A stretch of DNA of 64,000 bases. It comes from Leeuwenhoekiella palythoae. Its GTDB lineage: Bacteria > Bacteroidota > Bacteroidia > Flavobacteriales > Flavobacteriaceae. Location: positions 62,001 to 126,000 of the forward strand of contig NZ_FQXT01000007.1 of assembly GCF_900130045.1 (NCBI RefSeq). Reading direction: 5' to 3'. The position numbers were made by a program, and so were the translations under genes. The notes below the pieces were generated by a model. The model was given only the letters and a program-made list of their open reading frames with translations, ran no database searches and was not told the origin of the DNA. Shown here piece after piece: positions 16,768 to 34,331 of the stretch. Within the stretch, counting starts at the first letter, position 1. Each line of letters begins with the position of its first letter.

Positions 16768-16778
16768 ATAAGGACATT

Positions 16779-16825
16779 AAACGTCAAATTAACCTTTAAT
16801 TAACAAAATGCTTGAATTGACGTTT
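16779..16825. repeat. Spaced inverted repeat (AAACGTCAAATT / AATTGACGTTT)
   Basis: Arms at 16779-16790 and 16815-16825 are inverted copies differing by one extra A, with a 24-base spacer. Placement 12 bases after the LacI-type palindrome suggests a second regulator site, not a terminator, because no T-run follows. Confidence 0.5.
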
Positions 16826-17091
16826 TGCCGAAAAAAGTAGGTGTTTTTTGCAGGTAAAAACGACGATTTTCACCCAATTTAGCCCTACTTTTTCAAAAAA
16901 TATTCATCATTTAAACAAGCGTGTAATTGATGCACTCTTTCTTGCGTAATTTTATTAGCTATGAATATTTCACAATAAAAACAGTAATTCTTAGCAAATT
17001 ATTAGTTATTTGATAAAATATTGCGAATAAGCGTACAAAATACAGTTTTCAAAACTATATCGATTTCGTTACTTAAACGTTGTAGTTGCCC

Positions 17092-17120
17092 TTGTTTATT
17101 CAATTATTTATATAAATTTG
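17092..17120 (+). promoter_or_regulatory. susC promoter
   Basis: -33 TTG (17092-17094), 18-base spacer, -7 box TAAATTTG (17113-17120), giving a leader of roughly 48 bases before the ATG at 17175. Good match to the Bacteroidota consensus. Confidence 0.75.
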
Positions 17121-17174
17121 GATACCAAGAAACATTATTGGAAAACCAAATAATTCAATTAAAATTCAAAACTT

Positions 17175-20100
17175 ATGAAGCAAGTAATACTTAGAAGTAT
17201 GTTGTTTTTCGCTTCGCTTTTACTGGCAGGTATGGCGCAAGCACAAACAGTATCCGGAACAGTATCTGAACCTAATGGTCCGCTTCCGGGCGCAAACGTT
17301 CTCGTAAAAGGAACTACTAATGGTACAACTACTGATTTTGATGGAAATTACACCTTAAACGATGTAGCTACCGGAAGTGTCCTAGTTTTTAGCTACGTAG
17401 GCTTTGCTCCTCAAGAAGTTGCTGTAAACGGTAGATCTACTGTTAACGTGACACTTCAAGAGGATGCTGCAGCTTTAGATGAAGTAGTTCTTATTGGTTA
17501 TGGGTCAACTACAGTTAAAGATGCAACGGGAACCGTTGCTTCGGTAACTTCAGAAGATTTCAACCAAGGGGTAATTGCTTCCCCAGAACAATTAATTCAA
17601 GGTAAAACTGCCGGGGTACAAATATCACAGTCTTCTGGTGAGCCGGGAGCAGGTATCAATGTGCGTATTAGGGGTTCAAACTCTATTCGTTCTGGGAACA
17701 ACCCCCTTATCGTTGTTGATGGTGTGCCATTAACAACCTCAGGAGCTCCTGCTGCAGGTGACTTAGGTGTAGGTGGTGGTTCTTCAAGAAACCCATTAAG
17801 TTTCTTAAACCCAACCGATATAGAAAGTATCTCTATTCTTAAAGATGCATCAGCAACTGCGATCTACGGTTCTCGTGGTGCTAATGGTGTAATCATCGTA
17901 CAAACCAAGAGTGGCCGTGGTAGCTCTGGAGGTGTTTGGGAAGTAAGCAGTAACGTAAGCTTCTCTTCTCCGGCAAGAGAATATGATCTACTAACAGCAG
18001 ATCAATACCTTAATGCTTTACCAGATTATGGAGGAGACCCTTCATTATTAGACTTTGGTTTCGCTTCTGACTTTCAAGATTTTTATACCAGAAATGCGAT
18101 CTCTACTCAAAATAACTTGAGCTATGCACACAGCTATACTTCTGGTAACGTGCGTGCGTCATTTGGTTATTCAGACCAGCAGGGTGTTATCAGAAACACA
18201 GGTCAAGAAAGAATTACTGGTCGTTTAAATGCTACGCAGCGTTTGTTTGATGATAAACTTACCTTAAGCTTACAGACCACTTTATCTCGTGTAAATGATC
18301 AAAACGCTCCTATTAGTGGTCAGGCTGGTTCAACAGGTGACTTAATTGGTTCATCAATTACAGCAAACCCTACTTGGCCAGTTGATGCTGACTTTTCTCC
18401 GGGAAGTAACTTATTAAACCCGGTTAACTTATTACGTTATTATCAAAGTGAGTCTAATACCAATCGTTTTTTAGCAAACCTTTCTGCGGAGTATAAAATT
18501 ACAGATGCAATTAGCGCTAAAGTAACCGGAGGTTATGACAAAAGTGATGCAAAAACTATCGCGCTTTTCTCCCCTGAAGTAGCTGGTATCAACCGTGTGT
18601 CTGGTAACGGTCAAGGAACCTACGGAACTTTTGATCAGACTAACAAGCTTTTTGAAGCTACTTTAAGCTACAACAAGCAGTTTGAAAACTCAAAAATTGA
18701 CGTAGTTGCCGGTTATTCTTATCAAGAATTTGCTCGTGAAGGAATAAACGCTGGTGGTATTGGCTTTGGTCCAGATATGGGCTTAGCTGCTAGCCAACTT
18801 GAAGATCAGTATGATTTGATCGCCAATACGATCTCTGGTTCGTTTCAAAACTTTGCTTACGACCAAGACAGAGATTATGTAAACCGAATTGATTTTGGAG
18901 CACCATTTGACTCTGCATTCGTTTCTGAACCCATCGGTACAAGTTACTCTCAGCTTTTTACTGCGTATTTCGCAAATACCTTTGATAACACAGATGAATT
19001 ACAATCGTATTTCGCTCGTGTAAACTATACGCTTGCTGATAAATACTTATTTACAGGAACATTCAGAGCTGACGGTTCTTCAACTTTCGGACCTGAAAAT
19101 CAATATGGTTATTTCCCTTCTGGTGCTTTTGCTTGGCAAATTCACGAAGAAGACTTTATTGGAGACAATGTATCTACCCTTAAGTTAAGATTAGGTGCAG
19201 GGGTTGTTGGTAACCAAGAAGGTTTAGGATACGCTAATTTCATCAGAAGAACACGTTTCTCTGATATCGGAATTACCGATAACTTGACGGTAACTAACTC
19301 AGGAACTCAGTTTGTAGGTAACAATAACGAAGCGCTTCAATGGGAGTCTACTTTGGACGTAAACATTGGTGTTGACTTTGGTTTCAACAACGATCGCTTT
19401 AATGGGTCTTTCAACCTGTACCGTAAAGAAACTACAGACTTACTATTATTAAGTACGCTTGCAGCTCCACAGGTTCCGGGTATCGAAACTATTTTCCAAA
19501 ACTTGACTGATGGTAAAGTAGTGAACCAAGGGGTTGAACTTGCGCTTAATTACGACTTTGTACAAACAGAAGATTTTACTTTCTCTTCTTCTTTCAACAT
19601 TGCTTATAACCATAATGAGGTGTTAGATACTGATCGTATCATTGATACAGGACCAATTAATGGTAATGGTTTAACTGGTGCTTTTGCGCAACGCTTACAA
19701 GCAGGGTATCCTTTATTCTCTTTCTATATGGCTGAATTCACAGGTTTTGATGAAAACGGAAATCCAACATATGTAGATGTCGATGGTAATGGTGAAGGAG
19801 ATCCAGATGCAGATAAGAAATTTGTAGGCGAAGATGCTCAGCCAGATTGGACTGCCGGACTTTCTTTAAACGCAACATATAAGAACTTTGATTTTGCTGC
19901 ATATTTTAATGGGCAGTTTGGATTCTCAGTTTATAACGCAACAGACAATGCATTCTTTAATGCAGGTGGTATCACAATCGCTAAAAACGTAACCACTGAT
20001 GTATTAACTAGTGGTGAAGCTCCAGGTTCTTCAGTAGCAGTTTCTACACGTTTCTTAGAGAAAGGAGATTTTGTACGCTTACAAACTTTAAGCGTAGGAT

Positions 20101-20318
20101 ATAATGTACCTATGAGCGGTGAAGGATTATTTGACTCACTTCGTTTTTCAGTAACAGGTCAAAACGTATTCTTAATCACTGGTTACTCTGGGCTTGATCC
20201 TGAAGTTTCTACAAACACAGGTAGTCTTAATGCTTCTAACATTCCTACCGCAGGTATTGAATACGCAGCATTCCCAAGACCTCGTACATTCTCATTTGGT
20301 GTTAACGCAAGATTTTAA
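17175..20318 (+). CDS. SusC/RagA-family TonB-dependent outer-membrane transporter
   Basis: 1047 residues. Signal peptide ends at GMAQAQT; residues about 25-115 are the carboxypeptidase-regulatory-like domain (SGTVSEPNGPLPGANVLVKGT, TDFDGNYTL); DEVVLIGYGS precedes the plug domain, with RIRGSNSIRSGNNPLIVVDG and LKDASATAIYGSRGANGVIIVQTK as SusC hallmarks; a long TonB-dependent barrel follows, ending in the aromatic FSFGVNARF. It imports oligomers bound by its SusD partner, encoded 11 bases downstream. Substrate is unknown; the shared LacI-type operator links it to the sugar locus at 35.5-43.5 kb. Confidence 0.95.
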   Translation: MKQVILRSMLFFASLLLAGMAQAQTVSGTVSEPNGPLPGANVLVKGTTNGTTTDFDGNYTLNDVATGSVLVFSYVGFAPQEVAVNGRSTVNVTLQEDAAALDEVVLIGYGSTTVKDATGTVASVTSEDFNQGVIASPEQLIQGKTAGVQISQSSGEPGAGINVRIRGSNSIRSGNNPLIVVDGVPLTTSGAPAAGDLGVGGGSSRNPLSFLNPTDIESISILKDASATAIYGSRGANGVIIVQTKSGRGSSGGVWEVSSNVSFSSPAREYDLLTADQYLNALPDYGGDPSLLDFGFASDFQDFYTRNAISTQNNLSYAHSYTSGNVRASFGYSDQQGVIRNTGQERITGRLNATQRLFDDKLTLSLQTTLSRVNDQNAPISGQAGSTGDLIGSSITANPTWPVDADFSPGSNLLNPVNLLRYYQSESNTNRFLANLSAEYKITDAISAKVTGGYDKSDAKTIALFSPEVAGINRVSGNGQGTYGTFDQTNKLFEATLSYNKQFENSKIDVVAGYSYQEFAREGINAGGIGFGPDMGLAASQLEDQYDLIANTISGSFQNFAYDQDRDYVNRIDFGAPFDSAFVSEPIGTSYSQLFTAYFANTFDNTDELQSYFARVNYTLADKYLFTGTFRADGSSTFGPENQYGYFPSGAFAWQIHEEDFIGDNVSTLKLRLGAGVVGNQEGLGYANFIRRTRFSDIGITDNLTVTNSGTQFVGNNNEALQWESTLDVNIGVDFGFNNDRFNGSFNLYRKETTDLLLLSTLAAPQVPGIETIFQNLTDGKVVNQGVELALNYDFVQTEDFTFSSSFNIAYNHNEVLDTDRIIDTGPINGNGLTGAFAQRLQAGYPLFSFYMAEFTGFDENGNPTYVDVDGNGEGDPDADKKFVGEDAQPDWTAGLSLNATYKNFDFAAYFNGQFGFSVYNATDNAFFNAGGITIAKNVTTDVLTSGEAPGSSVAVSTRFLEKGDFVRLQTLSVGYNVPMSGEGLFDSLRFSVTGQNVFLITGYSGLDPEVSTNTGSLNASNIPTAGIEYAAFPRPRTFSFGVNARF

Positions 20319-20329
20319 AAAAAATAACT

Positions 20330-21955
20330 ATGAAATATTTAAAACAACATTTTAAAACTTCTAGGTTTTTAGTAGGAGTCCTATCCTTAGGATTGGCTAT
20401 CTCTTGTACAGACCTAGAGATTGAAGAAACAGATTCAAGACAGTCACCAGACTTTCAAGGGGTAGGTGATGTAGATTTATTTATTGATGGTATCTACAAC
20501 AGTTTAAACGGAATCATTGGTAACCAGGCAGATTTCTTTGCGCTTAGTGAAGTGACTACAGATGCTGCACTGGTTCCTACCAGAGGTTCTGACTGGGGTG
20601 ATAACGGGATCTGGAGACAGTTGCACCAGCACGATTGGAGAACTGATCACCAGTATATCACAAACACATTCAACCAGTGGAACCAAACGCAGTTTGCTGC
20701 GTCTCAAGCTTTGTCTGACCTATCAAGCCCTAATGAAGAGCAACGCGCTCAAGCCTCTTTCTTAAGAGCATTAGGTGTATTCTTTGTTCTTGATAACTTT
20801 GGTCAAGTGCCTATTCGTGATCCTGAAGCGTCTTTATTAGACAATCCTGAAGTGATCACCGGGCAAGAAGCTGTTGATTATATCATTTCAGACTTGAATA
20901 CCGCAATCGCCGGTTTACCTACTTTAGGACCTGGTTCTGGCGTGGGAACTGCAACCTCTGATCACGCTAGAGCTTCCAAAGCTGCCGCACGTTATTTATT
21001 AGCAAAAGTGCTTCTTAACAAGCATATTTATGTAGGTGGCGAGCCTGCTACTGCAGATATGCAACAAGTTATTGAGCTGGTAGACGCTATTGATGCTGAT
21101 GGCTATGGAATTGAAGATGATTACTTTGATATCTTTAGAAATGAATTAGATGATGAAACGATCTGGTTTATCCCTACTTCTGTAGGTAACCGAATCTGGA
21201 ATGGTCTGCACTACAACAGTGCTCCTGAAATTGCAGGTGGTGGTTGGAATGGTTTTGCTACGCTAGCAGAATACTACGATATGTTTGAGGGAGATCCTAA
21301 TGTAAATACACCAGGATCTGGTCAAGAAGAACGTCGTGGTTTTGTTCCTACCGAAGGTCTTGCTGCAGGTTCGTTTGAAGGTTCATCAGATTCTAATGAT
21401 GATGGTTTTGCAGATGGATCAAACATTGGTTTTGGTTTCTTAGTAGGTCAGCAATACGATTATGATGGCACTCCATTAAATGATCGTGGTGGTAACCCAC
21501 TTACTTTTAAGAGACAATTTACGGACGGTAATGGTAATGTTAGCCTTATCAATAACAGCGAAACGACTGGTATTCGTGTACAAAAGTACAACGCCCGTTA
21601 CGGCGGATTTGTGGAGCACGAAATTTTCTTCCGCTATTCTGATGCGTATTTGATGAAAGCTGAAGCAATGTTTAGAGCTGGTCAAGACCCAACTGCAATG
21701 ATGAATGTGCTACGTGGTCTTCGTGAGGCTACTCCGTTTACTTCGGTTACTGAGCAAGACATTCTAGATGAAAGAGGTCGCGAACTTTATGCTGAGTTCT
21801 GGAGACGTAATGATATGATTCGTTTTGGTCAATATACCAGAGGATGGGAATTAAAAGCAGATTCTCAAATAGGAAATGAAAACAGAAACTTGTTCCCAAT
21901 TCCTGCCAGTCAGATAATTCTTAACCCTAATTTGACTCAAAATCCAGGATACTAA
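20330..21955 (+). CDS. SusD/RagB-family nutrient-binding lipoprotein
   Basis: 541 residues with a lipobox (LAISC, Cys26). SusD features: FLRALGVFFVLDNFGQVPIRD in the TPR region, ATSDHARASKAAARYLLAKVLLNK, and the C-terminal RDxL-like tail DILDERGRELYAEFWRRNDMIRFG and LFPIPASQIILNPNLTQNPGY. It is the surface lid of the adjacent SusC transporter. A strong hairpin terminator follows, which should make susCD more highly expressed than the genes after it. Confidence 0.95.
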   Translation: MKYLKQHFKTSRFLVGVLSLGLAISCTDLEIEETDSRQSPDFQGVGDVDLFIDGIYNSLNGIIGNQADFFALSEVTTDAALVPTRGSDWGDNGIWRQLHQHDWRTDHQYITNTFNQWNQTQFAASQALSDLSSPNEEQRAQASFLRALGVFFVLDNFGQVPIRDPEASLLDNPEVITGQEAVDYIISDLNTAIAGLPTLGPGSGVGTATSDHARASKAAARYLLAKVLLNKHIYVGGEPATADMQQVIELVDAIDADGYGIEDDYFDIFRNELDDETIWFIPTSVGNRIWNGLHYNSAPEIAGGGWNGFATLAEYYDMFEGDPNVNTPGSGQEERRGFVPTEGLAAGSFEGSSDSNDDGFADGSNIGFGFLVGQQYDYDGTPLNDRGGNPLTFKRQFTDGNGNVSLINNSETTGIRVQKYNARYGGFVEHEIFFRYSDAYLMKAEAMFRAGQDPTAMMNVLRGLREATPFTSVTEQDILDERGRELYAEFWRRNDMIRFGQYTRGWELKADSQIGNENRNLFPIPASQIILNPNLTQNPGY

Positions 21956-21982
21956 TTAGAAAACTTTAGTACTAGATTTATA

Positions 21983-22012
21983 AAAAGGAGGGTCAGCATT
22001 GGCCCTCCTTTT
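21983..22012 (+). terminator. Hairpin terminator after susD
   Basis: 10-base perfect stem (21983-21992 / 22003-22012), 10-base loop, ending in four T. It stands between susD and the first VCBS lipoprotein gene; partial readthrough is likely because no clear promoter is seen in the next 105 bases. Confidence 0.8.
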
Positions 22013-22117
22013 AAATTGAAAGATTTCTCAAACTTTACCTTCTAAATTGTTTCAACTTTAGAAAAAGACTCCTAGTTTTAAACACAAGCTACTTTTCCCT
22101 AAACTGTAAAAAAATCA

Positions 22118-25100
22118 ATGACAAGATTATACCCTTTCTTTTTGAGCGTATTACTTGCTATGAGTTTTTCTTGCAGTAAAGAGACCACAGAATCTAAATT
22201 CATTGAGGCTCAAAATACAGGCATTACCTTCAGCAACGACTTAACAAATACACCCCAACTCAACATTCTTAACTACTTGTACTTTTATAATGGTGCAGGT
22301 ACAGCCGTTGCCGATTTTAATAATGATGGCCTGCTGGATATTTATTTCACCGGAAATCAAGTCGCAGATCAATTATACCTGAATCAAGGAGATTTAAAAT
22401 TTATTGATATTACTGACAAAGCTGCCATATACACCGCTGCAGATTCTTGGAATACCGGCGTTACCACTGTAGACATTAATGCAGACGGACTCCTCGATAT
22501 CTATGTATGTACGGTAAGTGGTCATCTTGATCAAACCGGAAGTAACAAACTTTATATCAATCAGGGAGTGCACGGCACGGTGCCCATGTTTATTGAGTCT
22601 GCTGCTGCTTACGGCTTAGATTATTCCGGACTCTCTACACAGGCTAGTTTTTTTGATTATGATAAAGATGGAGATCTAGATATGTATCTCCTCAATCACT
22701 CAGTGCATCCTAATGCCAGCTACGGCAGAGCAGCCATCCGCAAGATCCCTGATCCGCGAGGCGGTGACAAACTCTATCGCAATGATGGTAATAAGTTCAC
22801 CGACGTAACCGAGCAAGCCGGGATCTTTAGTAGTAAAATAGGTTATGGGCTAGGTGTTTCCATATCAGATTTAAATAACGATGGCTACCCAGATATTTAT
22901 ATTGCTAACGATTTTTTTGAGAATGACTACGTTTACATCAATAATCAGGACGGCACATTTTCTGAAGTAAATACTACGCAAAACCTACTGGGGCACACCT
23001 CGCATTTTTCGATGGGAAGCGATATTGCTGACCTCAACAATGATGGCAATACAGACATTTTAAGCTTAGATATGTTGCCTGAAAACCTTGAAGTTTTAAA
23101 AGCTTCGGGAAATGAATACGCCTACCCTATTTATCAAAACCAACTCAGAAACGGCTATGATTATCAGTTTATGCAAAACACCTTACAACTTAATCTAGGT
23201 AATGGCAGATTTGCAGAAACTGCGTTTCAAAGTGGTGTCGCCGCAACTGAATGGTCCTGGAGCCCTTTAATGGCTGATTTGGACAACGATGGTCATAAAG
23301 ACATTTATATCGCTAACGGAATTCTGGGCGCTACTAATGATATGGATTTTGTGAATTTCATCTCCAACGAGAGTATTCAAAAGCGTTTAGGCAAAAATAT
23401 GTCCGAAACTGAAATGGAATTCATCAACAAACTTCCGGAAATCAAGGCGACCAATTATGCCTATAAAAATTTGGGTAACGGCACTTTTGACGATGTTACC
23501 GCACAATGGACTTCTAATCAAAAAACCTTTAGCAATGGTGCTACTTATGGAGATCTGGACAATGATGGCGATCTTGATCTGGTGGTAAATAACGTCAACC
23601 AGCCAGCATCTATTTTAAAAAACACCACCATTGAAACCTCACAACGTTCAAATGGAATTTCAGTTCATCTTATAGGCACTAAGCCCAATACTTTTGGGAT
23701 TGGCGCCAAAATCACAGCGTATACACCAAACCATACTCAGGTTTTTGAAAACTATAGCACACGTGGCTTTATGTCAGCAGTTGCTCCCTCCATTTTTATA
23801 GGATTGGGCAACGCCACACAATTAGACTCGTTAAAAGTACTCTGGCCTTCCGGAAAATCTCAAGTGATCGCAAATGTTAAAACCGAGCTGTTTTTGGATG
23901 AAAAAGACGCCTCGCAAACCGCTTTTAAAACTCAAGCTCCATCAGATCTTGTTTGGGTTCAAGACAGTACGGCAATAAATTTTCAGCACAAAGACGGGAA
24001 TTCTATTGAATTTAGTCGGGATCCTTTAGTTCCCTACGCAAACACTAACACCGGTCCGGCAATTGAAACCGGAGATTTGAATAATGACGGTCTTGATGAT
24101 ATTTTAATTCTAGGTGCCAAAGCGCAAAAAACGAGCATTTTCTTTCAGCAGGAGAATGGGAACTTTACTGAAGATTTTCTCCCTGAAAGTGAAGAAGACG
24201 CGATCAACGAAGATACCGCTGCGACACTTATTGATGTCAATAATGACGGTTTGCTCGATATTGTCATCGCCAGCGGCGGGAATGAATTCACCTCCGGAAG
24301 ACAACTAACACCTCGCCTTTACCTAAATTCGGAGGAAGGTTTTATTAAAATGAATAAAGCTTTTGAAGGCGTGACGCTTAATGCTTCGGCGATCACTGCT
24401 ATAGATTTTGATAATGACGACCATATTGATCTCGCTATAACCAGTGATCTGGTTCCTCAACAATTTGGCGCTACTCCGCAGCAATTCCTTCTAAAAAATG
24501 ATGGCAAAGGAAATTTCGCTGATGTTACCCAAAAATATGCTCCCGACTTTTCTTCCGCAGGAAATGTAAAGGATCTTATCTGGGTTGACCTTGACATCAA
24601 CGGTTTTAAAGATGCGATTGTCTGCGGTCACTGGATGCCTGTCAAGATCTTTATGAATTCGGGCGAAAAGCTAAAGCTTCTAAATTCGGATGACCTGAAA
24701 AACACAAACGGACTCTGGAATAGCATTCGTGCTGAAGATTTTGACGGCGATGGCGATATGGATTTGATTGCCGGCAATTGGGGCTTGAACACCCGCCTGA
24801 CCGCTTCGGTTGAAAAACCCTTGAATCTGTATCGTTTTGACTTTGATAATAACGGAAAGATTGACCCGATCACGACCTATTTCTACAAGGGAACCGAAAC
24901 CGTTTTGGCGACCAAAGATGAGTTGGTTAAGCAACTTCCGTTCTTGAATAAAAAATTCTTGAGTTATCACGATTTTGCAAAAGCCGGCATCACCGATTTA
25001 CTTTCTGAAGAAAAACTTGAAAAAGCCGAAAAAAAGCAAGTATTTACGCTTGAGACCACGTATTTTGAAAACCAAGGAAATTTAGCGTTTAAAGCAACTG

Positions 25101-25417
25101 CGTTACCGCAAATGGCACAGATTTCGAGTGTAAAATCAATCATAACCGAAGATTTCAATTCCGACGGTTTACTAGATATCTTGCTTTTAGGAAACGATAG
25201 CGAGATCAGCACCCAGTTGGGCCGCCTTGATGCTTCGCACGGTGTGTTTTTATTAAATACAGGATCGGGTTTCAACTATACCGGCAACCACACTATTGAT
25301 ATTAGAGGCGCTGTACGCAGCAACTCAAAGTTGAAAATTAAAGACGACCTTTTTTACATCATAGGTCGTAATAATGATAAACCGCTTTTTATTAGAAAAG
25401 AGACTGCACATGATTAG
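22118..25417 (+). CDS. CRTAC1-type VCBS/ASPIC-UnbV lipoprotein, copy 1
   Basis: 1099 residues with lipobox Cys19 (AMSFSC). Many FG-GAP/VCBS calcium-binding repeats are visible (for example DFNNDGLLDIYF, DINADGLLDIYV, DLNNDGYPDIYI, DLDNDGHKDIYI), consistent with two beta-propellers. Between them, at about residues 515-580, lies an ASPIC/UnbV domain (GIGAKI...STRGFMSAV...GLGNA...LWPSGKSQ). The family is common beside SusCD in Bacteroidota but has no established function. It overlaps the next paralogue by 8 bases. Surface ligand binding is an inference from the fold and the lipid anchor. Confidence 0.9.
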   Translation: MTRLYPFFLSVLLAMSFSCSKETTESKFIEAQNTGITFSNDLTNTPQLNILNYLYFYNGAGTAVADFNNDGLLDIYFTGNQVADQLYLNQGDLKFIDITDKAAIYTAADSWNTGVTTVDINADGLLDIYVCTVSGHLDQTGSNKLYINQGVHGTVPMFIESAAAYGLDYSGLSTQASFFDYDKDGDLDMYLLNHSVHPNASYGRAAIRKIPDPRGGDKLYRNDGNKFTDVTEQAGIFSSKIGYGLGVSISDLNNDGYPDIYIANDFFENDYVYINNQDGTFSEVNTTQNLLGHTSHFSMGSDIADLNNDGNTDILSLDMLPENLEVLKASGNEYAYPIYQNQLRNGYDYQFMQNTLQLNLGNGRFAETAFQSGVAATEWSWSPLMADLDNDGHKDIYIANGILGATNDMDFVNFISNESIQKRLGKNMSETEMEFINKLPEIKATNYAYKNLGNGTFDDVTAQWTSNQKTFSNGATYGDLDNDGDLDLVVNNVNQPASILKNTTIETSQRSNGISVHLIGTKPNTFGIGAKITAYTPNHTQVFENYSTRGFMSAVAPSIFIGLGNATQLDSLKVLWPSGKSQVIANVKTELFLDEKDASQTAFKTQAPSDLVWVQDSTAINFQHKDGNSIEFSRDPLVPYANTNTGPAIETGDLNNDGLDDILILGAKAQKTSIFFQQENGNFTEDFLPESEEDAINEDTAATLIDVNNDGLLDIVIASGGNEFTSGRQLTPRLYLNSEEGFIKMNKAFEGVTLNASAITAIDFDNDDHIDLAITSDLVPQQFGATPQQFLLKNDGKGNFADVTQKYAPDFSSAGNVKDLIWVDLDINGFKDAIVCGHWMPVKIFMNSGEKLKLLNSDDLKNTNGLWNSIRAEDFDGDGDMDLIAGNWGLNTRLTASVEKPLNLYRFDFDNNGKIDPITTYFYKGTETVLATKDELVKQLPFLNKKFLSYHDFAKAGITDLLSEEKLEKAEKKQVFTLETTYFENQGNLAFKATALPQMAQISSVKSIITEDFNSDGLLDILLLGNDSEISTQLGRLDASHGVFLLNTGSGFNYTGNHTIDIRGAVRSNSKLKIKDDLFYIIGRNNDKPLFIRKETAHD

Positions 25418-28400
25418 TTTTAAGAAAATATACTTTATCGGTATTTGTTTAGCTTTCGCTGCTTGTGATCAGGATAAGCAAGAAAATGATGCTGCAATAG
25501 ATCAAGAGCCTACTTTGTTTACCACAATGTCTCCCGATGAAACGGGCATCGACTTTGTGAACGCCATTAAAAATCAGAGCGACTTCAACATTTTTAAATA
25601 CCGAAATTTCTATAACGGTGGTGGTGTTGCGATTGGCGACATCAACAATGACGGTCTAGCAGACATTTACCTAACCGCCAATATGGAGCAAAACAAACTG
25701 TACCTCAACAAAGGAAATTTTCAGTTTGAAGACATTACCGAAAAAGCCGGTGTGGGCGGAAACAAACCTTGGTCTACCGGTGTGGTGATGGCAGATGTAA
25801 ACGCTGATGGTTTACTGGATATTTATGTGAGCAATGCCGGAAATATGAAAGGTAACAACCACGATAATGACCTGTACATTAACAATGGCGACCTTACTTT
25901 TACCGAAAAAGCACAGGAATACAATCTGGCAAAATCAGGATTTTCTACGCAAGCGAGTTTCTTTGATTATGATAAAGATGGTGACCTTGATGTGTATATT
26001 TTAAATAACAGCAACGTTCCTGTAAGCGGCTTGGGATATGCTGAGCAACGCGATACGCGGGCAGAAAACTGGGAGAATGTTCCTGATGTTTTTAAGGGTG
26101 TGGGTGATCTCCTTATGCGTAACGACGGTGGAACTTTTACAGACGTTAGTGAAGAAGCAGGAATTTACGGTAGTTTAATTGGTTTTGGCCTTGGCGTGAT
26201 GATCACAGACATCAATAATGATCTGTATCCGGATATCTATATTTCCAATGATTTCTACGAACGCGATTACCTCTACATCAATCAAAAAGATGGCACTTTT
26301 AAAGAAGAAATAAAAGAATGGACTTCCCACCTATCACTTTCTGCGATGGGTGTTGACATGGCAGATATCAATAACGATGGACTGCAAGATATTTTTATTA
26401 CCGATATGCTTCCCGAGCCGGAAGAGCGTGTAAAATCGGTAATGGAGTTTGACAATTATAATGTGTACAAACTCAAGCAGAGTAAAGATTTTTATCAGCA
26501 GTTTATTCAGAATACACTTCAAGTAAATAATGGCAACGGTACTTTTTCTGAAACCGCCTATTACAGTGGCGTAGATGCAACCGATTGGAGTTGGGCCGGA
26601 CTTCTTGTCGACCTTGATAATGATGGATATCGTGATATTTATGTCACCAACGGAATCAATCACGATTTAACTGATCTTGACTTTGTTGACTTTTTTGCGA
26701 ACGAGATCATTCAAAATATGGCGATGACCGGTAAGCGTCAAGCGATAGATTCGATCATTGATAAAATGCCTAAAAAGCCACTACCTAATGCGGTGTATCG
26801 CAATAAAAAAGATTTGACTTTTGAAGATGCCGGTAAAAAATGGGGACTTGATATGCCGAGTATGTCTAACGGTTCAGCCTACGGAGATTTAGATAATGAT
26901 GGTGATCTGGATCTGGTCGTGAACAACGTAAATATGCAAACCTTCATTTATCGCAATGAAGCTGCGCAACAAACGCAAAACCATTATTTAAGCCTAACCT
27001 TTAAAGGTGGCGAGCAAAACCCGTTTGCTGTGGGTGCTTCGGTGCGTTTGTATTTTGATGATCAGGAGATTTTTCAGGAATTGTATCCGGTGCGAGGGTT
27101 TCAATCTTCTGTAGATTATAAAATGACTATTGGTTTAGGCGCTACGCAAACTATTGATTCGCTTCGCGTTTTATGGCCTAATGATAAAACACAGCTTTTA
27201 ACCCAAGTTGCCACCAATCAAACCTTAGCTTTAGCTCAAGCTGATGCTACAGAAACCTATATTCCAAGAAAGCGACAGCCACAAGCTCAATTGCTAACCG
27301 AACTAAGCAACGAGAAGCTCAAAGCAAATACCGAAAACAATTATAACGACTTTGATTATGAAGGTTTGATCGCTAAAAAACTTTCGCAGGAAGGTCCGGC
27401 GCTGGCTACAGGGGATGTTGATGGTGATGGCAACGAAGATGTTTATGTAGGAGCACCTAGCGGAAGCGCAGGAACGCTGTATTTACATCAAGGCAAAGGC
27501 AAACTGAATATCAAAAACCAGTCGGCTTTTACCGAAGATGCTTTTTATGAAGATACCGCTGCAGCCCTTTTTGATGCCGACGGTGATGGCGATCTGGATT
27601 TAATGGTTGCTTCCGGAGGAAATGAAGTAGGTAAAAAAGAACAGTTAAAACCTAGATTGTATTTAAACGACGGCAAAGGAAACTTTAGCAAAGCTCCCGA
27701 AGAACTTCCTTCAGCATTTCAAAATATGAGTGTCGTTGCGCCTTACGATTTTGATAGCGACGGCGATATGGATGTATTTATAGGTTCGCGCAGTGTGGTT
27801 GGCGTTTATGGTATAGACCCTAAACAACTTTTCTTGGAAAATACCGGCAATGGTTTTTTTGTAAACGCAACAGAGCGTTTGGCTTACGACACCAAAGATG
27901 CAGGAATGGTAACTGACGCGCTTTGGCTGGATATTGACGAAGACGGTAAAGCCGATTTGATAACGGTTTCAGAATGGGGAGCGCCGCTTGTGTATAAAAA
28001 CTCGGGAAGACGATTATCCCTAAAAGAAACAAGTTTAAGCGATAAAACCGGCTGGTGGAACACCATCGCAGCGGTTGACATCGACAATGACGGTGATATG
28101 GATTTAGTATTGGGCAATGAAGGAGAAAATCTACATTATCTACCTTCGGAGCAACGCCCGATGTCTATGTACATCAACGATTTTGACAACAACGGAACAA
28201 TTGAACAAATCACTACGATGCACAAAAATGGGAAGGATTACCCATTGCATCAAAAGAAAGAGATCACCGCGCAAATGAGTTCGCTTAAAAAGCAAAACCT
28301 CAAAGCTTCAGATTATGCAAACCGCTATATCGACGAGATTTTCACTGAAGAAAGTCTCCGAAATGCGATTAAAAAATCGGTAAAATATGCGCAATCTATG

Positions 28401-28760
28401 ATCGCAGTAAATGATGGCAAGGGTAATTTCAGTTTAAAGCCCCTTCCCTATCAAACGCAATTATCGTGCGTTTGCGATATTGTCGCGACAGATATTAATA
28501 AAGATGGTTTAGCCGATTTGATTATGGCAGGGAATAACTTTGAGTTCAAACCGCAATATTCTCAGCTAGATGCCAGCTTTGGTAACGTATTACTCAATGA
28601 AGGTGATGCGTCGTATGCTTGGCAGAATTATGACAAGAGCGGCTTTTTCGTAAAAGGGGAAGTGAAGCATCTTGCGACCTTCAAAGATAAAAATGGAATT
28701 ACCTATTTAATCGCTTCGGTTAATGATGAAAAACCAAAAACCTTTGTGCTTAATGAATAA
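25410..28760 (+). CDS. CRTAC1-type VCBS/ASPIC-UnbV lipoprotein, copy 2
   Basis: 1116 residues from the ATG at 25410 (MISFKKIYF), which gives a proper lipoprotein signal (LAFAAC, Cys19); an earlier in-frame start would put 12 charged residues before it. Same architecture as copy 1: FG-GAP repeats (DINNDGLADIYL, DVNADGLLDIYV, DLDNDGYRDIYV), an ASPIC/UnbV domain around 535-600 (VGASV...PVRGFQSSV...GLGA...LWPNDKTQ), and a second propeller. The start overlaps the stop of copy 1 (ATGATTAG), implying translational coupling. Confidence 0.9.
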   Translation: MISFKKIYFIGICLAFAACDQDKQENDAAIDQEPTLFTTMSPDETGIDFVNAIKNQSDFNIFKYRNFYNGGGVAIGDINNDGLADIYLTANMEQNKLYLNKGNFQFEDITEKAGVGGNKPWSTGVVMADVNADGLLDIYVSNAGNMKGNNHDNDLYINNGDLTFTEKAQEYNLAKSGFSTQASFFDYDKDGDLDVYILNNSNVPVSGLGYAEQRDTRAENWENVPDVFKGVGDLLMRNDGGTFTDVSEEAGIYGSLIGFGLGVMITDINNDLYPDIYISNDFYERDYLYINQKDGTFKEEIKEWTSHLSLSAMGVDMADINNDGLQDIFITDMLPEPEERVKSVMEFDNYNVYKLKQSKDFYQQFIQNTLQVNNGNGTFSETAYYSGVDATDWSWAGLLVDLDNDGYRDIYVTNGINHDLTDLDFVDFFANEIIQNMAMTGKRQAIDSIIDKMPKKPLPNAVYRNKKDLTFEDAGKKWGLDMPSMSNGSAYGDLDNDGDLDLVVNNVNMQTFIYRNEAAQQTQNHYLSLTFKGGEQNPFAVGASVRLYFDDQEIFQELYPVRGFQSSVDYKMTIGLGATQTIDSLRVLWPNDKTQLLTQVATNQTLALAQADATETYIPRKRQPQAQLLTELSNEKLKANTENNYNDFDYEGLIAKKLSQEGPALATGDVDGDGNEDVYVGAPSGSAGTLYLHQGKGKLNIKNQSAFTEDAFYEDTAAALFDADGDGDLDLMVASGGNEVGKKEQLKPRLYLNDGKGNFSKAPEELPSAFQNMSVVAPYDFDSDGDMDVFIGSRSVVGVYGIDPKQLFLENTGNGFFVNATERLAYDTKDAGMVTDALWLDIDEDGKADLITVSEWGAPLVYKNSGRRLSLKETSLSDKTGWWNTIAAVDIDNDGDMDLVLGNEGENLHYLPSEQRPMSMYINDFDNNGTIEQITTMHKNGKDYPLHQKKEITAQMSSLKKQNLKASDYANRYIDEIFTEESLRNAIKKSVKYAQSMIAVNDGKGNFSLKPLPYQTQLSCVCDIVATDINKDGLADLIMAGNNFEFKPQYSQLDASFGNVLLNEGDASYAWQNYDKSGFFVKGEVKHLATFKDKNGITYLIASVNDEKPKTFVLNE

Positions 28761-31700
28761 GTTTTTCTCACTGCTCATTTTAGGTTTATCGATCGTTTCT
28801 TGTAAAGACGAGCCGGAATTATTTTTAAATCCAAGCCCTGAAAAAACTGGAGTGACCTTTAAAAATACGCTCGAGGCTACAGACGATATGAATATTTTGG
28901 ACTACCTCTATTTTTATAATGGCGGTGGACTCGCAATTGGTGATATCAATAACGACGGCTTACCTGATATTTACTTTTCAGGAAATCAGGTTAAAAATCA
29001 GTTGTACCTCAATAAGGGAAATCTAAAATTTGAAGATATCACTGAAAAAGCCGGAGTTGCAGGAAACAGCGATTGGAAAACCGGTGCGGTTATGGGTGAT
29101 GTAAACGGTGACGGCTTTCTAGATATTTATGTATGTGCGGTGGTTGGCCTCAATGGTTTAGACGGCTACAACGAACTTTTTATCAATAACGGCGATGGGA
29201 CTTTTACCGAACGCGCTGCAGCATATGGCCTTGATCTGGACACCTATTCTTCTTCTGCGGCATTTTTAGATTATGACCTGGATGGCGATCTAGACATCTA
29301 CATTCTCAATCACGCGGTGCATACGCAGAGTTCGTTTGGAAAGGCAGATTTACGCTACGAACGCAATCAACAAACTGGAGATCGCTTGATGCGGAACGAC
29401 GGCGGAACTTTTACCGATGTTAGTGAAGAAGCAGGGATTTATGGTGGAATTAACGGCTACGGATTAGGAATTGCGGTAGCAGATTTTAACCTTGATGGAT
29501 ATCCTGATCTGTATATTGGCAATGATTTCCACGAAGATGATTACTACTACATCAATAACGGTGATGGCACTTTTACCGAAGATTTAAAAAATCATTTTGG
29601 CCACACCAGCCGTTTTTCAATGGGAAGCGACGTGGCCGATCTCAATCACGACGGCTGGCCCGATCTGATTTCGCTAGATATGCTCCCACAGGATGAAAAG
29701 GTTTTGAAAGCTTCTGAAGGTGATGATAATATTCAGACACAGCGTTTGCGTACAGATCGATATGGCTACCACTATCAGTTTACGAGAAATATGTTGTTCA
29801 TTAATCGTGACGGAAAGGATTACCAAGAAACTGCGTTATTGAGTGGAGTTGCCGCTACAGACTGGAGTTGGAGTGCTTTGTTTGCTGATTTCAACCAAGA
29901 TATGCAGCAGGATCTTTTTATCTCTAACGGAATTCCAAAACGTCCAAACGACCTTGATTACATCAAGTTTGTATCCAACGAGCAGATTCAAAGTAAGATC
30001 AATAACACCGGCTTAATCGATACTAAAGCGCTCGATCTGATGCCTTCTGGAGTAACACATAATTATGTGTATGAAGGAAGCGCCGATTTACAGTTCAAAG
30101 ATCAGTCCGGCAAATGGATTGCGAACGACACCATTGTTTCCGGAGCGACGGCCTATGCCGATCTTGATAATGACGGCGACCTGGATTTGGTCACTAACAA
30201 CATCAATGCTTCACCTACCTTTTACATCAATAAAACTGATGAGAAAGCCAATTATCTTAAGCTAAAACTGAAAACGCAAAGCTCAAACACCTATGCTATT
30301 GGCGCTAAAGTGTATGCGTATGCCAACGGCATTAAGCAGTTTAAAGAGTTGTATACCGTGCGTGGTTTTCAAGCTTCTTCAGAACCTTTGATCCATTTTG
30401 GATTGGGCGATGCCAAAGTCGTTGACTCTGTGCGAATCATTTGGCCCGACAAGACAAGCCAAGTTCTTAAAGACATTAGCGCAAATCAAAGTCTTGTAGT
30501 GAATCAAGAAAACACCCAGGCTTTTGATTACAACAGTTTAAAACCTAAACAACAAAAGCTTTTCTCAAAAGTCACCAATTCTTTAGGGCTAGATTTTACA
30601 CACATTGAAGATGCCTATTCTGACTTTGATCGTGAGAAATTAATCCCTTATCAAATAGGTGATCGCGGGCCGGCGGTGGCAGTTGGCGATCTTGATGGGG
30701 ACGGTAACGATGATGTGCTTTTTGGTGGATCGAAATACATTCCTTCTCAGGTGTTTATTCAGCAGGATTCAGCTTTTGCAAAAACAGAATTTCCTGCCAT
30801 TAAAAAGGATTCGATCAATGAAGAAGTTACCGCCATTATCGCTGATTTTAACCAAGACAGAAAAAACGATTTGATGACCGGTACTGCAGGTGGTGACTTT
30901 TTCAACAGAGCAAAACCCTTGATAGACGGACTTTATCTAAACGACGGCGCAGCTTTTTCTTCAGCCGCAATGCCTGAGCTTTTTGATAATACTTCGGTGC
31001 TTGCAACTTATGATTATGACGGCGATGGTGATCTTGATGTTTTTGCCGGAACCCAAGCCATAACAGGAAGTTTTGGTAAAACACCGGTTTCGTATCTTTT
31101 AGAAAATGAGATTGGAAGTTTCCGCGTAGCGCAAGAATTTAAAGATCTCGGAATGGTTACCGCTGCTGTTTGGAGCGATTTTAACAGGGACGGAAAGTTA
31201 GACCTTGTGATCGTTGGCGAATGGATGGCTCCTACTTTTTTAGAAAACAAAAATGGTAGATTAACTAAAGTCGATTTAGGAACCGAAAATCTTAACGGAC
31301 TATGGCAAAGCGTGATTCCGTTTGATATTGACGGCGATGGTGATGAAGATTATTTAGTTGGAAACTGGGGCGAGAACAGCAAATTTAAAGCTTCGGCCGA
31401 TGCTCCAATGGTGATGTTTTACAATGATTTTGACAATAATGGTCAAACGGAAACTATTATCACTACAGCCAAAGAAGGCAAGTATTATCCCTTAATGGGA
31501 CTTGATGCGCTGGCTTCTCAAGTAGTTTCTTTCAGAAAAAAGTATCAGAATTACAGAGATTTTGCCGGTCAAACCATCGAGCAAATTCTTAGTAAAGAAC
31601 AGTTAGAAACAAGTACAAAACTAGAAGTACAAACCTTAGAAACCGGTTATCTGCGCAATGACGGCGGCAAATTTGAATTTGTAGCTTTAGGTCGTGATTT

Positions 31701-31989
31701 TCAGGTTGCACCCGTGTTAAGTTTTTGTAAATTTGATTTCGATAATGATGGTAAAGAAGAAGTTCTTGCTGCCGGAAATTACTTTGGCGTACAGCCGTTT
31801 CACGGAAGATTAGACAGCTTTAACGGCGCCTTGATCAAAGATGAAAACACGGTGATTCCGGGAGATCAGATAGGTCTCGATTTTGCACGAAAATCTATAC
31901 GAGATCTTTCTATACTTTCATTAAATGGTCAAAAGTATTTGCTTGCGACTCCCAACAACGCTACCAGCCAGCTATACAAACTAGATTAA
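28753..31989 (+). CDS. CRTAC1-type VCBS/ASPIC-UnbV lipoprotein, copy 3
   Basis: 1078 residues from the ATG at 28753 (MNKFFSLLILG), giving lipobox LSIVSC (Cys17). FG-GAP/VCBS repeats (DINNDGLPDIYF, DVNGDGFLDIYV, DFNLDGYPDLYI, DLDNDGDLDLVT), ASPIC/UnbV domain around 510-575 (IGAKV...TVRGFQASS...HFGLGDA...IWPDKTSQ), then a second propeller. The 8-base ATGAATAA overlap with copy 2 repeats the copy 1/copy 2 junction geometry. Copies 1 and 3 share the opening NILDYLYFYNG-type motif, so they look closer to each other than to copy 2. Confidence 0.9.
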   Translation: MNKFFSLLILGLSIVSCKDEPELFLNPSPEKTGVTFKNTLEATDDMNILDYLYFYNGGGLAIGDINNDGLPDIYFSGNQVKNQLYLNKGNLKFEDITEKAGVAGNSDWKTGAVMGDVNGDGFLDIYVCAVVGLNGLDGYNELFINNGDGTFTERAAAYGLDLDTYSSSAAFLDYDLDGDLDIYILNHAVHTQSSFGKADLRYERNQQTGDRLMRNDGGTFTDVSEEAGIYGGINGYGLGIAVADFNLDGYPDLYIGNDFHEDDYYYINNGDGTFTEDLKNHFGHTSRFSMGSDVADLNHDGWPDLISLDMLPQDEKVLKASEGDDNIQTQRLRTDRYGYHYQFTRNMLFINRDGKDYQETALLSGVAATDWSWSALFADFNQDMQQDLFISNGIPKRPNDLDYIKFVSNEQIQSKINNTGLIDTKALDLMPSGVTHNYVYEGSADLQFKDQSGKWIANDTIVSGATAYADLDNDGDLDLVTNNINASPTFYINKTDEKANYLKLKLKTQSSNTYAIGAKVYAYANGIKQFKELYTVRGFQASSEPLIHFGLGDAKVVDSVRIIWPDKTSQVLKDISANQSLVVNQENTQAFDYNSLKPKQQKLFSKVTNSLGLDFTHIEDAYSDFDREKLIPYQIGDRGPAVAVGDLDGDGNDDVLFGGSKYIPSQVFIQQDSAFAKTEFPAIKKDSINEEVTAIIADFNQDRKNDLMTGTAGGDFFNRAKPLIDGLYLNDGAAFSSAAMPELFDNTSVLATYDYDGDGDLDVFAGTQAITGSFGKTPVSYLLENEIGSFRVAQEFKDLGMVTAAVWSDFNRDGKLDLVIVGEWMAPTFLENKNGRLTKVDLGTENLNGLWQSVIPFDIDGDGDEDYLVGNWGENSKFKASADAPMVMFYNDFDNNGQTETIITTAKEGKYYPLMGLDALASQVVSFRKKYQNYRDFAGQTIEQILSKEQLETSTKLEVQTLETGYLRNDGGKFEFVALGRDFQVAPVLSFCKFDFDNDGKEEVLAAGNYFGVQPFHGRLDSFNGALIKDENTVIPGDQIGLDFARKSIRDLSILSLNGQKYLLATPNNATSQLYKLD

Positions 31990-32067
31990 TCGGAAGATAC
32001 AACACCTTAAAACAATTTAAAGTAGAAATCCTTTTCATCAAGGTTTCCCTAAAATAATTTGAAGATT

Positions 32068-33417
32068 ATGCTTAAAAAACTGAGCCTACTGGTTCTTTCT
32101 GCAGTTATGATTACTTCTTGCTCCAAAGAAGAAAAACCACTTGTAGTTACACCAGACGATTATAACAATGCGGTAGATAAAGTTACCGAGGTGATCATTC
32201 ATGATATTTTTTCGCCACCAGTGGCTAGCCGAATTTACGCCTACTCCAATATGGCGGCATACGAAGTTTTGGTGCAAAATAATCCTGATTATAAAAGTCT
32301 AGCCGGTCAAATTAATGAGTTGGGAGAAACGCCAAAACCTGATGCTGACGCCGCTGTAAATTATGATGTAGCTGCGCTTGTTGCTCAGATGGAAATGGCA
32401 AAAAGTCTAATCTTCTCTGAAGATCGTATTACCGAAATGCGCGACAGTTTGTATATGCAATGGAAAGAGCAAAACCCAACCGAGTTGGAAGCTTCAAAAG
32501 CTTATGGACTTAAAGTTGCAGATCACATCAAAGCTTGGATGGATGGGGATATGTATAAGCAAACGCGCACCATGCCAAAGTTCTCGGTAAATCCTGACAA
32601 TCCTTCTCGCTGGCAACCTACGCCTCCTGCATATATGGACGGTATTGAGCCACACTGGATGAAAATTAGAACGCTGGTAATCGATTCTGCAGATCAATTT
32701 AAACCAATTCCTCCACCGGCTTTCTCTTTGGAAGAAGGATCTGAATTTCACAAACAGTTGATGGAAGTTTATGACGTGCGTAACGCTATGACCGAAGAAG
32801 GTGATGAATCTGAAAAAATGGAAATTGCCAAATTTTGGGACTGTAATCCTTATGTATCTACGCACAAAGGACACTTGATGTTTGCTACCAAAAAGATCAC
32901 GCCCGGTGGCCACTGGATCGGGATTGTAAAAATCGCAACCAAAAAAGCCAATGCCGACTTGATGGAAACGGTTTATGTGTACACCAAGACTTCTGTTGCG
33001 CTTTTTGACGGCTTTATCAGCTGTTGGGATGAGAAATACCGCAGTAACCTCATCCGTCCTGAGACACTCATCAATCAATACATTGACGATGCTTGGGCAC
33101 CTGTTTTACAAACTCCGCCATTTCCGGAATACAGCAGCGGTCACTCTGTAGTTTCGGGAGCAGCAGCAGAAGTGCTTACCCAAATTTATGGAGATAATTT
33201 TCAGTTTGACGATGATACAGAAACCGCTTATGGTTTGCCGGTACGCAGTTTTGATTCGTTTAGAAATGCATCATCAGAGGCTGCTTTAAGTCGCCTTTAT
33301 GGGGGAATTCACTATCGTGCCGCAATTGAGGAAGGACTTAAACAAGGGCGTCAATTGGGTCAATTTGTTTCGCAAAATTTACAAATGAAAACAAATACTG
33401 CTCAAGCTTCTAACTAA
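32068..33417 (+). CDS. Vanadium-dependent haloperoxidase/PAP2-superfamily lipoprotein
   Basis: 449 residues from the ATG at 32068; lipobox MITSC (Cys18). All three metal/phosphate-binding motifs of the superfamily are present with the spacing of vanadium haloperoxidases: K323-x6-R330-P, S357-G358-H359, and R409-x5-H415 (SRLYGGIHYRAAIEEG). The residue after the last histidine that is often Asp is Glu421. These residues can hold vanadate (halide oxidation) or act as an acid phosphatase; sequence alone does not decide. It follows the three VCBS lipoproteins by 78 bases and is presumably exported with them. Confidence 0.88.
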   Translation: MLKKLSLLVLSAVMITSCSKEEKPLVVTPDDYNNAVDKVTEVIIHDIFSPPVASRIYAYSNMAAYEVLVQNNPDYKSLAGQINELGETPKPDADAAVNYDVAALVAQMEMAKSLIFSEDRITEMRDSLYMQWKEQNPTELEASKAYGLKVADHIKAWMDGDMYKQTRTMPKFSVNPDNPSRWQPTPPAYMDGIEPHWMKIRTLVIDSADQFKPIPPPAFSLEEGSEFHKQLMEVYDVRNAMTEEGDESEKMEIAKFWDCNPYVSTHKGHLMFATKKITPGGHWIGIVKIATKKANADLMETVYVYTKTSVALFDGFISCWDEKYRSNLIRPETLINQYIDDAWAPVLQTPPFPEYSSGHSVVSGAAAEVLTQIYGDNFQFDDDTETAYGLPVRSFDSFRNASSEAALSRLYGGIHYRAAIEEGLKQGRQLGQFVSQNLQMKTNTAQASN

Positions 33418-33422
33418 AAATT

Positions 33423-34331
33423 ATGCTTAAAAAAATCGGAGTTGGCTTCTTAATCCTAGTTGCCGTAGCCTTGATCTGGTATCTTTTTATAAAACCCAGC
33501 GATTACATCATCAATTTTAAAGTCGTGACCACACCGGGTACCGTCACACAATCAGTAAAAAGCTGGAATTATGATGTGCCCGACAGCGAGATCATAGCGC
33601 AAGACGGACTACATAAAGTGGTGCAACAGCGTCATTTTGGCGATTCGGTGGTGAATTATACGTATGAGGCTAAAATGATCAACGACTCGGTAACGCAAGT
33701 TAGCGTTGGAGTAAAAGATCTTGATCATAGTGTGGTCAACAGGCTTACCGCACCGTTTAAAAACACCCTTTTTAGAAAACGTAGTACCGAAAATGTCGAA
33801 ACTTTTTTTGAGATTCTTCGGGAGCATTTAGATCAGATCAAAATCGAAGTTACCGGCTTAGATCAAACCCGATCAACATATGTAGCTTATGTTCCGCTGA
33901 AAGGATTACAGGTGGAAAAAGCACGCGGTATGATGCAGTATTACGGCTATATAGGCGATGTATTACTAAAAAACAATGTAGAGCTTAATGGCCCGCCGAT
34001 CATTGAAGTTACAGATTGGGATACTGAAACCGATAGTATTGCCTATAACTTTTGCTTTCCTATCATCAGGTCTGAAAACTTACCCATTTCAAAAGACATC
34101 AAGTACAAGCGCCTTTTTCAGAAAGAAGCTGTGCACGCGGTTTACAATGGAAACTACATAACTTCAGATCGTGCGTGGTATGCCCTGCTTGAATATGCTG
34201 AGAGAAACAATCTGAAGGTTGAACATAAACCGGTTGAAATTTTCTACAACAACCCCAATATGGGTGGAAACGAGCTCGACTGGAAAGCTGACATCTACTT
34301 ACCGATCAAACAAGAATCTCCGCTGGAATAA
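33423..34331 (+). CDS. Membrane-anchored SRPBCC/GyrI-like domain protein
   Basis: 302 residues. One N-terminal membrane helix (GVGFLILVAVALIWYLFI) anchors it. Residues about 25-140 look like a degenerate SRPBCC (polyketide-cyclase-like) domain and about 150-300 like a GyrI/AraC-effector-binding domain (YVPLKGLQVEKARGMMQYYGYIGDVL, KYKRLFQKEAVHAVYNGNY). No DNA-binding domain. It starts 5 bases after the haloperoxidase-like gene, so the two are co-transcribed. The GyrI-like fold binds small molecules; the ligand is unknown. Confidence 0.78.
   Translation: MLKKIGVGFLILVAVALIWYLFIKPSDYIINFKVVTTPGTVTQSVKSWNYDVPDSEIIAQDGLHKVVQQRHFGDSVVNYTYEAKMINDSVTQVSVGVKDLDHSVVNRLTAPFKNTLFRKRSTENVETFFEILREHLDQIKIEVTGLDQTRSTYVAYVPLKGLQVEKARGMMQYYGYIGDVLLKNNVELNGPPIIEVTDWDTETDSIAYNFCFPIIRSENLPISKDIKYKRLFQKEAVHAVYNGNYITSDRAWYALLEYAERNNLKVEHKPVEIFYNNPNMGGNELDWKADIYLPIKQESPLE

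Follow-up and report, generated by a model that had tools for sequence, protein, structure and literature searches.

A widely conserved candidate glycan-uptake locus of Bacteroidota with a vanadium haloperoxidase in the predicted place of an enzyme

The locus and its closest described relatives

Polysaccharide utilization loci (PULs), among them those of the levan and dextran outer-membrane utilisomes of Bacteroides thetaiotaomicron, encode a SusC and a SusD protein followed, within a single operon, by surface-type lipoproteins (PMC7618045, in the portion of its text available). Marine flavobacterial alpha-glucan loci carry a GH65 glycoside hydrolase (GH), few enzymes and an open-type SusD, according to the available sections of PMC11093988. 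A third described element, the vanadium iodoperoxidase ZgVIPO1 (PDB 4cit and 4usz), is known as an isolated enzyme. Here, we analyzed a 64,000-nucleotide stretch of Leeuwenhoekiella palythoae (contig NZ_FQXT01000007.1, positions 62,001 to 126,000; the window), in which a SusC/SusD pair is followed by three giant lipoproteins (V1 to V3), a haloperoxidase of the ZgVIPO1 subfamily (VIPO) and a GyrI-like protein. By its predicted products the block is of PUL type, with a vanadium haloperoxidase apparently taking the enzyme's place, and it is conserved in many relatives. Our reading, at a probability of about 0.6, is that the block serves glycan uptake and that VIPO and the V proteins have a part in it. 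The genes of the block are:

17175–20318, plus strand: SusC/RagA-type TonB-linked outer-membrane importer (1047 residues; TIGR04056, 704 bits against a cut-off of 368)
20330–21955, plus strand: SusD-type lipoprotein (541 residues; PF07980, SusD_RagB)
22118–25417, plus strand: V1, FG-GAP/VCBS and ASPIC-UnbV lipoprotein (1099 residues; PF13517, PF07593)
25410 (ATG)–28760, plus strand: V2, same family as V1 (1116 residues; Pfam matches, AlphaFold2 model)
28753 (ATG)–31989, plus strand: V3, same family as V1 (1078 residues; PF13517, PF07593)
32068 (ATG)–33417, plus strand: VIPO, a lipoprotein and vanadium haloperoxidase belonging to the ZgVIPO1 subfamily (449 residues; PAP2 fold, match to 4cit/4usz)
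33423–34331, plus strand: GyrI-like protein with an N-terminal membrane helix (302 residues; PF06445)

This gene set, its order and its common strand, up to the membrane-anchored GyrI-like protein just past the end of the interval first noted (17175–33417), are as an earlier, sequence-only reading had claimed, and the family assignments were concordant between Pfam and NCBIfam scans. The claimed 8-base start/stop overlaps are present at V1/V2 and V2/V3; V3 and VIPO are separated by a 78-base gap. For VIPO, the open reading frame tool chose a TTG at 32059, and searches used a start at 32065, one residue upstream of the ATG at 32068. The tandem SusC–SusD pair is one of the features by which a PUL is recognized. 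Judged by eye, the N-termini of SusD, V1 to V3 and VIPO are lipobox-like. In a crude count for a surface-export signal, at least two acidic residues followed the lipid-bearing cysteine in 39/52 SusD, 11/16 V1, 15/41 V2, 21/54 V3 and 17/55 VIPO sequences, and in 25/77 other lipobox open reading frames.

The block resembles the utilisomes in its SusC, for which the nearest solved chain is 8aa4 (expectation value, E, 2.8e-105), a chain of the dextran utilisome (available portion of PMC7618045), and in the LacI-type gene that stands beside SusC in relatives. It differs from them in having double propellers of the CRTAC1 (cartilage acidic protein 1) type at the position that normally belongs to a glycan-binding protein, and a vanadium haloperoxidase where the utilisomes have a glycoside hydrolase. 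As had been proposed, the block includes an oxidizing enzyme, and its gene has the position that is usual for a surface enzyme in such loci. For SusD, a single-sequence search gave the starch SusD 3ck7 as the best solved chain (E 1.4e-25). With regard to ligand residues, the profile alignment places W89 and N92 of the window SusD at W98 and N101 of starch SusD; it does not extend over the middle region and serves as a lead only.

All three V proteins have an FG-GAP_3 propeller followed by UnbV_ASPIC (67–81 bits), which places them in the CRTAC1/ASPIC-UnbV family, and contain 13, 13 and 12 calcium-type motifs in V1, V2 and V3, respectively. Fold comparison covered V2. Its AlphaFold2 model, built from a 24-row alignment (predicted local distance difference score, pLDDT, 85.8; predicted TM-score 0.84), consists of two propellers with the ASPIC/UnbV domain in between. 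Residues 33–612 share the fold of murine CRTAC1 (9etn; Z 39.2 over 459 residues, 2.4 Å, 21% identity); unlike CRTAC1, the V proteins carry a second propeller (in V2, residues 624–1116) and a lipoprotein signal. The second propeller gave generic matches only, to LGI1 (Z 31.5), aldos-2-ulose dehydratase (4a7k, Z 29.1) and many WD-repeat proteins (Z about 26), so we drew no function from them. The GyrI-like protein (AlphaFold2, pLDDT 87.5) has a GyrI/SOUL-type domain, for which Foldseek matched CtaZ (7zhd, E 1.3e-8), and its membrane helix spans residues 2–23.

VIPO and ZgVIPO1 align over almost their whole length, with E 1e-208 and an identity of 64.9% across 444 columns. The sequence-only reading had left the kind of haloperoxidase unnamed, and this similarity places it in the ZgVIPO1 iodoperoxidase subfamily. 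Identity is 94% to the enzyme of L. blandensis MED217 and 81–88% to seven other Leeuwenhoekiella records. Residues K324, R331, S358, H360, R410 and H416, which we take to be the vanadate-binding positions, are present in the window VIPO and invariant in 140/140 relatives; G359 is kept in 139/140. The block and ZgVIPO1 have their catalytic residues in common. The likeness extends to gene order, as one genome (G001) encodes a haloperoxidase 98.4% identical to ZgVIPO1 in the order V1-V2-V3-VIPO-GyrI, with matching SusC and SusD genes further upstream and inserted genes in between. Therefore, a near-identical copy of the studied enzyme, which comes from Zobellia galactanivorans (4cit; PMC13198595, available text), belongs to the same kind of locus. 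In the genome with this near-identical copy, genes of the DNA polymerase III alpha and ImuB types are found between SusD and V1 (L055:15372-19635).

The literature searched describes no SusCD–ASPIC/UnbV–haloperoxidase locus, an earlier mention being possible, above all in the 2014 paper on ZgVIPO1, and assigns ZgVIPO1 no operon role. Nor did this search yield an established cellular role for bacterial vanadium iodoperoxidases or an established function for giant CRTAC1-type lipoproteins beside SusCD.

Conservation of the block

The survey comprised 299 Flavobacteriaceae genomes, which represent 236 genera; at E ≤ 0.001, a relative of VIPO was found in 194 of the genomes. Including the window, 125 listed VIPO matches scored at least 480 bits, and 119 of the other 124 loci were fetched together with as much as about 17 kb of upstream sequence. 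The five loci outside the survey are G124, G167 and, at or near a contig start, G232, G292:C32 and G137. A V gene was present in the stretch in 106/119 VIPO loci and directly upstream of VIPO in 90/119. GyrI was directly downstream of VIPO in 68 loci, in all of which V was directly upstream, and 57 of these also had SusC and SusD within the stretch. A second locus type (22/119) has at least two V genes and no GyrI, with a SusD that is weakly similar or unseen. More distant VIPO matches (n = 20, 28–51% identity) had V in the stretch in 16 cases, directly upstream in 12. Random gene neighborhoods in relatives would have contradicted the sequence-only reading; instead, relatives keep the order SusC-SusD-V-VIPO.

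The association also holds when viewed from V2. Among the 77 best V2 relatives in Flavobacteriaceae, window included, 72 are followed by VIPO on the same strand at a distance of no more than 20 kb. The five exceptions are one genome without a VIPO of that score, one in which both genes are at contig ends and three rows on contigs other than that of VIPO. Thus, V2–VIPO linkage exceeds chance. On a FastTree phylogeny of 141 rows, the labels for V, GyrI and xylose genes required 13, 12 and 15 changes, respectively, so that they are clustered, not fixed.

The family is not the limit of this arrangement. In a sample of the phylum, VIPO was found at E ≤ 1e-20 in 79/395 genomes, 63 of them outside Flavobacteriaceae. 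ASPIC positions were collected for 17 of the 63, and the best VIPO match had a same-strand ASPIC domain within 5 kb in 13/17 and within 2.1 kb in 10/17. Since the L. palythoae genome holds 7 ASPIC domains in 4.03 Mb, we estimate chance adjacency at well under 1%. The proposal of an undescribed surface system therefore stands in part: there is a conserved gene system of SusCD, paired-propeller lipoproteins and a haloperoxidase, but the kind of haloperoxidase was already known.

The three V paralogues had also been proposed to be made in fixed stoichiometry and, on that ground, to form a complex. However, the GyrI-type loci carry three V genes upstream in 41 cases, two in 24, four in 2 and one in 1 (some stretches end early), and V1 is often missing. 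With the start taken as the in-frame ATG nearest the preceding stop, a choice that favors short distances, 38/61 loci share the 8-base overlap at V2/V3 but only 3/43 share it at V1/V2. Because the number of V genes varies from one to four, the data do not support three as a constant set. One locus (L069) has an altered order, SusCD-V2-V3-GyrI, then a XylB-like kinase, xylose isomerase, a symporter on the other strand and VIPO; here GyrI has stayed beside V3, and VIPO accompanies the xylose genes.

Sugar genes around the block and its V paralogues

The strongest hint for glycan uptake comes from the other V loci of the same genome. Each of the four other ASPIC genes neighbors SusC and SusD, two genes intervening in one of the loci. 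In one locus (L168, C9:714000-733500, at 690-19053), SusC, SusD, V, a haloperoxidase and GH10 follow one another on one strand; beyond GH10 are a hybrid two-component regulator, which is encoded on the opposite strand, and then GH97 and GH43-CBM6. By its predicted enzymes this is a xylan-type locus, and its gene order places a V and haloperoxidase pair beside xylan enzymes. The L168 haloperoxidase is of a different, NapH/VCPO-like subfamily (nearest 9ptr, 9l8x and NapH1). A second locus (L167) has the order SusC-SusD-V-arabinofuranosidase-GH43-GH43, and in a third (L169) V is preceded by two DUF genes of lipoprotein type and followed by a hybrid regulator. Since V genes of this genome adjoin SusCD and xylan-type enzymes, V proteins look like normal members of glycan loci, in conflict with the sugar-enzyme-free character ascribed to the system. 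A further, weak vanadium-haloperoxidase relative (499-residue frame) is at C11:185590-186402, on a contig without ASPIC matches.

Genes just outside the block in the window are:

35522–37828, minus strand: GH65, maltose-phosphorylase-like (1h54, E 1.4e-220); membership of the block is suggested by relatives
37832–38488, minus strand: putative beta-phosphoglucomutase-like HAD protein beside GH65 (open reading frame, named from sequence and place)
38491–39537, minus strand: LacI-type regulator adjoining the GH65 cluster (open reading frame; 374–414 bits to several LacI-type genes of relatives that are divergent from SusC)
39695–41248: GH32 (family scan)

Thus, the claim that the block contains no glycosidase holds for 17175–34331 but not just outside it, as GH65 begins 1.2 kb past the block end on the opposite strand and GH32 follows. 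After the LacI gene, at 39695–43496, GH32 is accompanied by sugar-transporter-like and fructokinase-like genes, of which GH32 was scanned; this is likely a fructan or sucrose cluster.

As a general trait, the absence of sugar enzymes did not survive comparison with relatives, where the block is linked with genes for LacI, GH65, xylose use, GH97 and GH13. We clustered the genes of 120 stretches (L036-L155) and scanned one or a few members per cluster. An SSF symporter cluster was present in 39/120 loci, with 11/42 copies on the VIPO strand, and a regulator cluster, LacI-type in the member scanned, in 35/120. FGGY kinase and sugar isomerase clusters occurred in 23 loci each, always on the VIPO strand. 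Downstream, GH97 was found in 9/120 stretches and GH13 in 6/120 (one member per cluster scanned). The isomerase scanned scored 670 bits against a xylose isomerase cut-off of 533; for the kinase, xylulokinase ranked first at 292 bits, below the cut-off of 380. Per 119 loci, there were 23 with xylose isomerase, 23 with the xylulokinase-like kinase and 38 with an SGLT-type symporter; isomerase and/or a strong symporter match occurred in 40, including 4 of the 13 loci that lack V.

GH65, whose nearest relative is maltose phosphorylase, recurs near the block. Among the matches listed, it is within 45 kb of VIPO in 45/84 genomes having both; all 45 linked genes are on the strand opposite VIPO, 42 upstream and 3 downstream, the latter including the window. 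The described alpha-glucan loci are similar in having SusCD, GH65 nearby and few enzymes, as in the block. They differ in that the text of PMC11093988, as far as available, mentions neither V proteins nor a haloperoxidase, and in that its locus tags place one gene between GH65 and SusC, against two in the relatives surveyed. In the same available text, Muricauda SusCD was abundant on bacterial extract, glycogen and xylan, and the GH enzymes did not follow. This expression pattern would fit the block, if the two loci correspond.

The regulators of relatives point the same way in part. Where its position was visible, a LacI-type gene divergent from SusC was within 1.5 kb in 33/65 loci, and a palindrome, CGAAAACGTTTTCG, occurred 111–398 bases before SusC in 19/64 loci (12/39 GyrI-type and 7/25 others). 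The LacI gene of the window is 21 kb from SusC. In a window scan that allowed up to 3 mismatches to the palindrome, none of the matches rose above chance (7 against 5.5 expected), and the candidate at 17291 is inside SusC; we therefore claim no operator in the window. Together, these neighbors give the block a sugar context in a portion of its relatives.

Proposed role and alternative readings

In the mechanism we propose, SusC and SusD, from their families, would import the ligand. V1 to V3, in the position of surface glycan-binding proteins, would probably gather substrate at the cell surface. With peroxide and halide, VIPO would then form hypohalous acid beside the captured substrate, a chemistry known for the subfamily. 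This oxidation might strip phenolic or other oxidizable decorations from a glucose- or xylose-containing glycan, or cut it, before import through SusCD; we put this forward tentatively, as possible but somewhat less probable than not, and decoration removal or chain cutting by the VIPO product would be the weakest step of the scheme. The GyrI-like protein might bind or clear a small hydrophobic by-product. Expression in relatives is probably controlled by the LacI-type sugar regulator, given the gene order and, in some relatives, the operator.

Generalized, the block would represent an oxidative glycan-uptake machine of many Bacteroidota, in which a surface haloperoxidase held by propellers next to SusCD replaces or assists a glycoside hydrolase, halogen chemistry is a normal step of import and ZgVIPO1 is one part; we consider a scheme of this breadth doubtful. 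If V proteins and VIPO do cooperate in sugar uptake, marine halogen and carbon cycling would meet in one conserved block. A haloperoxidase from an iodide-oxidizing subfamily, in a position that commonly belongs to a sugar-cutting enzyme, suggests a possible link between halogen chemistry and sugar uptake.

Several observations weigh against a glycan-uptake role. The operon at 17175–34331 contains no carbohydrate-active enzyme by family scan and no peroxide source, and ZgVIPO1 itself is described as an iodine enzyme. A 16-row profile search with SusD places 3jys, which has no stated ligand, first and 3ck7 second. VIPO occurs without V in 13/119 loci, and outside Flavobacteriaceae 4/17 best VIPO matches have no ASPIC domain nearby, while a same-strand V lies within 5 kb of only 3 of the 11 additional VIPO copies in those 17 genomes. 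Xylose isomerase and the SGLT-type symporter are both absent from 79/119 loci; among the matches listed, 39/84 genomes have no GH65 gene within 45 kb of VIPO; the exact operator is absent in 45/64 relatives, and the scan of the window for it was negative, as described above. As the linked sugar genes vary between lineages, they may be mere neighbors.

The alternative that survives best is iodine acquisition, in which VIPO would use peroxide to oxidize iodide at the surface, the V proteins would hold hypoiodous acid or an iodinated carrier, and entry would be through SusCD, making the locus the genetic basis of iodine accumulation in marine flavobacteria. Membership of VIPO in the ZgVIPO1 iodoperoxidase subfamily supports it. 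Iodine accumulation is reported for Z. galactanivorans (PMC9296495, available text), and a review, in its available part, has extracellular vanadium iodoperoxidases oxidizing iodide and the product being taken up (PMC12535851). Iodine uptake by Arenibacter C-21, the genome of which encodes at least five ZgVIPO1 homologues, depends on glucose, oxygen and calcium, and peroxide is able to drive it (PMC5064120); the calcium-type motifs of V1 to V3 can be set beside that calcium requirement. An iodine-only reading, with ZgVIPO1 as its basis, was the first we considered. We lowered it because the recurring neighbors are xylose-gene inserts (isomerase, xylulokinase-like kinase and SGLT-type symporter), LacI and GH65 rather than iodine genes, and because the V and haloperoxidase pair elsewhere in the genome adjoins xylan-type enzymes and has a haloperoxidase of another subfamily. 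The one inserted symporter tested is far closer to vSGLT (E 1.6e-237) than to the sodium/iodide cotransporter (E 7.8e-26), which rules it out as an iodide symporter, and no paper in the literature searched links the gene block to iodine. We now regard iodine acquisition as unlikely. The block nonetheless provides a concrete gene set with which to examine iodine accumulation by flavobacteria.

Less likely still is a protective role, in which VIPO would remove peroxide or make hypohalous acid against competitors or algal defenses, and would be a mere passenger of a SusCD operon. The loci in which VIPO occurs without V fit such a role, and another Z. galactanivorans copy, vIPO3, rises together with stress genes on fresh brown alga; that report, in the available text of PMC9296495, concerns vIPO3 and not ZgVIPO1. 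The close coupling of VIPO to V and SusCD across many genera and the copy in the xylan-type locus speak against a passenger.

The residues K-x6-R, SGH and R-x5-H are common to PAP2 phosphatases and vanadium haloperoxidases. It is nevertheless very improbable that VIPO is a surface phosphatase for sugar phosphates or phosphorylated glycans, with halide oxidation a side activity of the test tube: such an activity would suit a sugar-uptake operon and these residues are invariant in VIPO, but the ZgVIPO1-like surroundings of the site are kept as well (W321 in 140/140 relatives and, in close relatives, D322 in 114/119 and F257, W258 and C260 in 119/119 each), and the closest matches of the haloperoxidase in the xylan-type locus are other vanadium haloperoxidases.

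Two further families recur around the block. One, of about 202 residues, was found in 16/120 stretches, mostly on the VIPO strand; in L041 (15219-15830) it is flanked by two V2-like genes, and a scan of one member gave no Pfam match. The other, of about 300 residues, follows GyrI or VIPO in 39/120 stretches (for example, L045:17806-18705); neither of two members scanned had a Pfam match above the cut-off, and one had a weak SdiA-regulated match.

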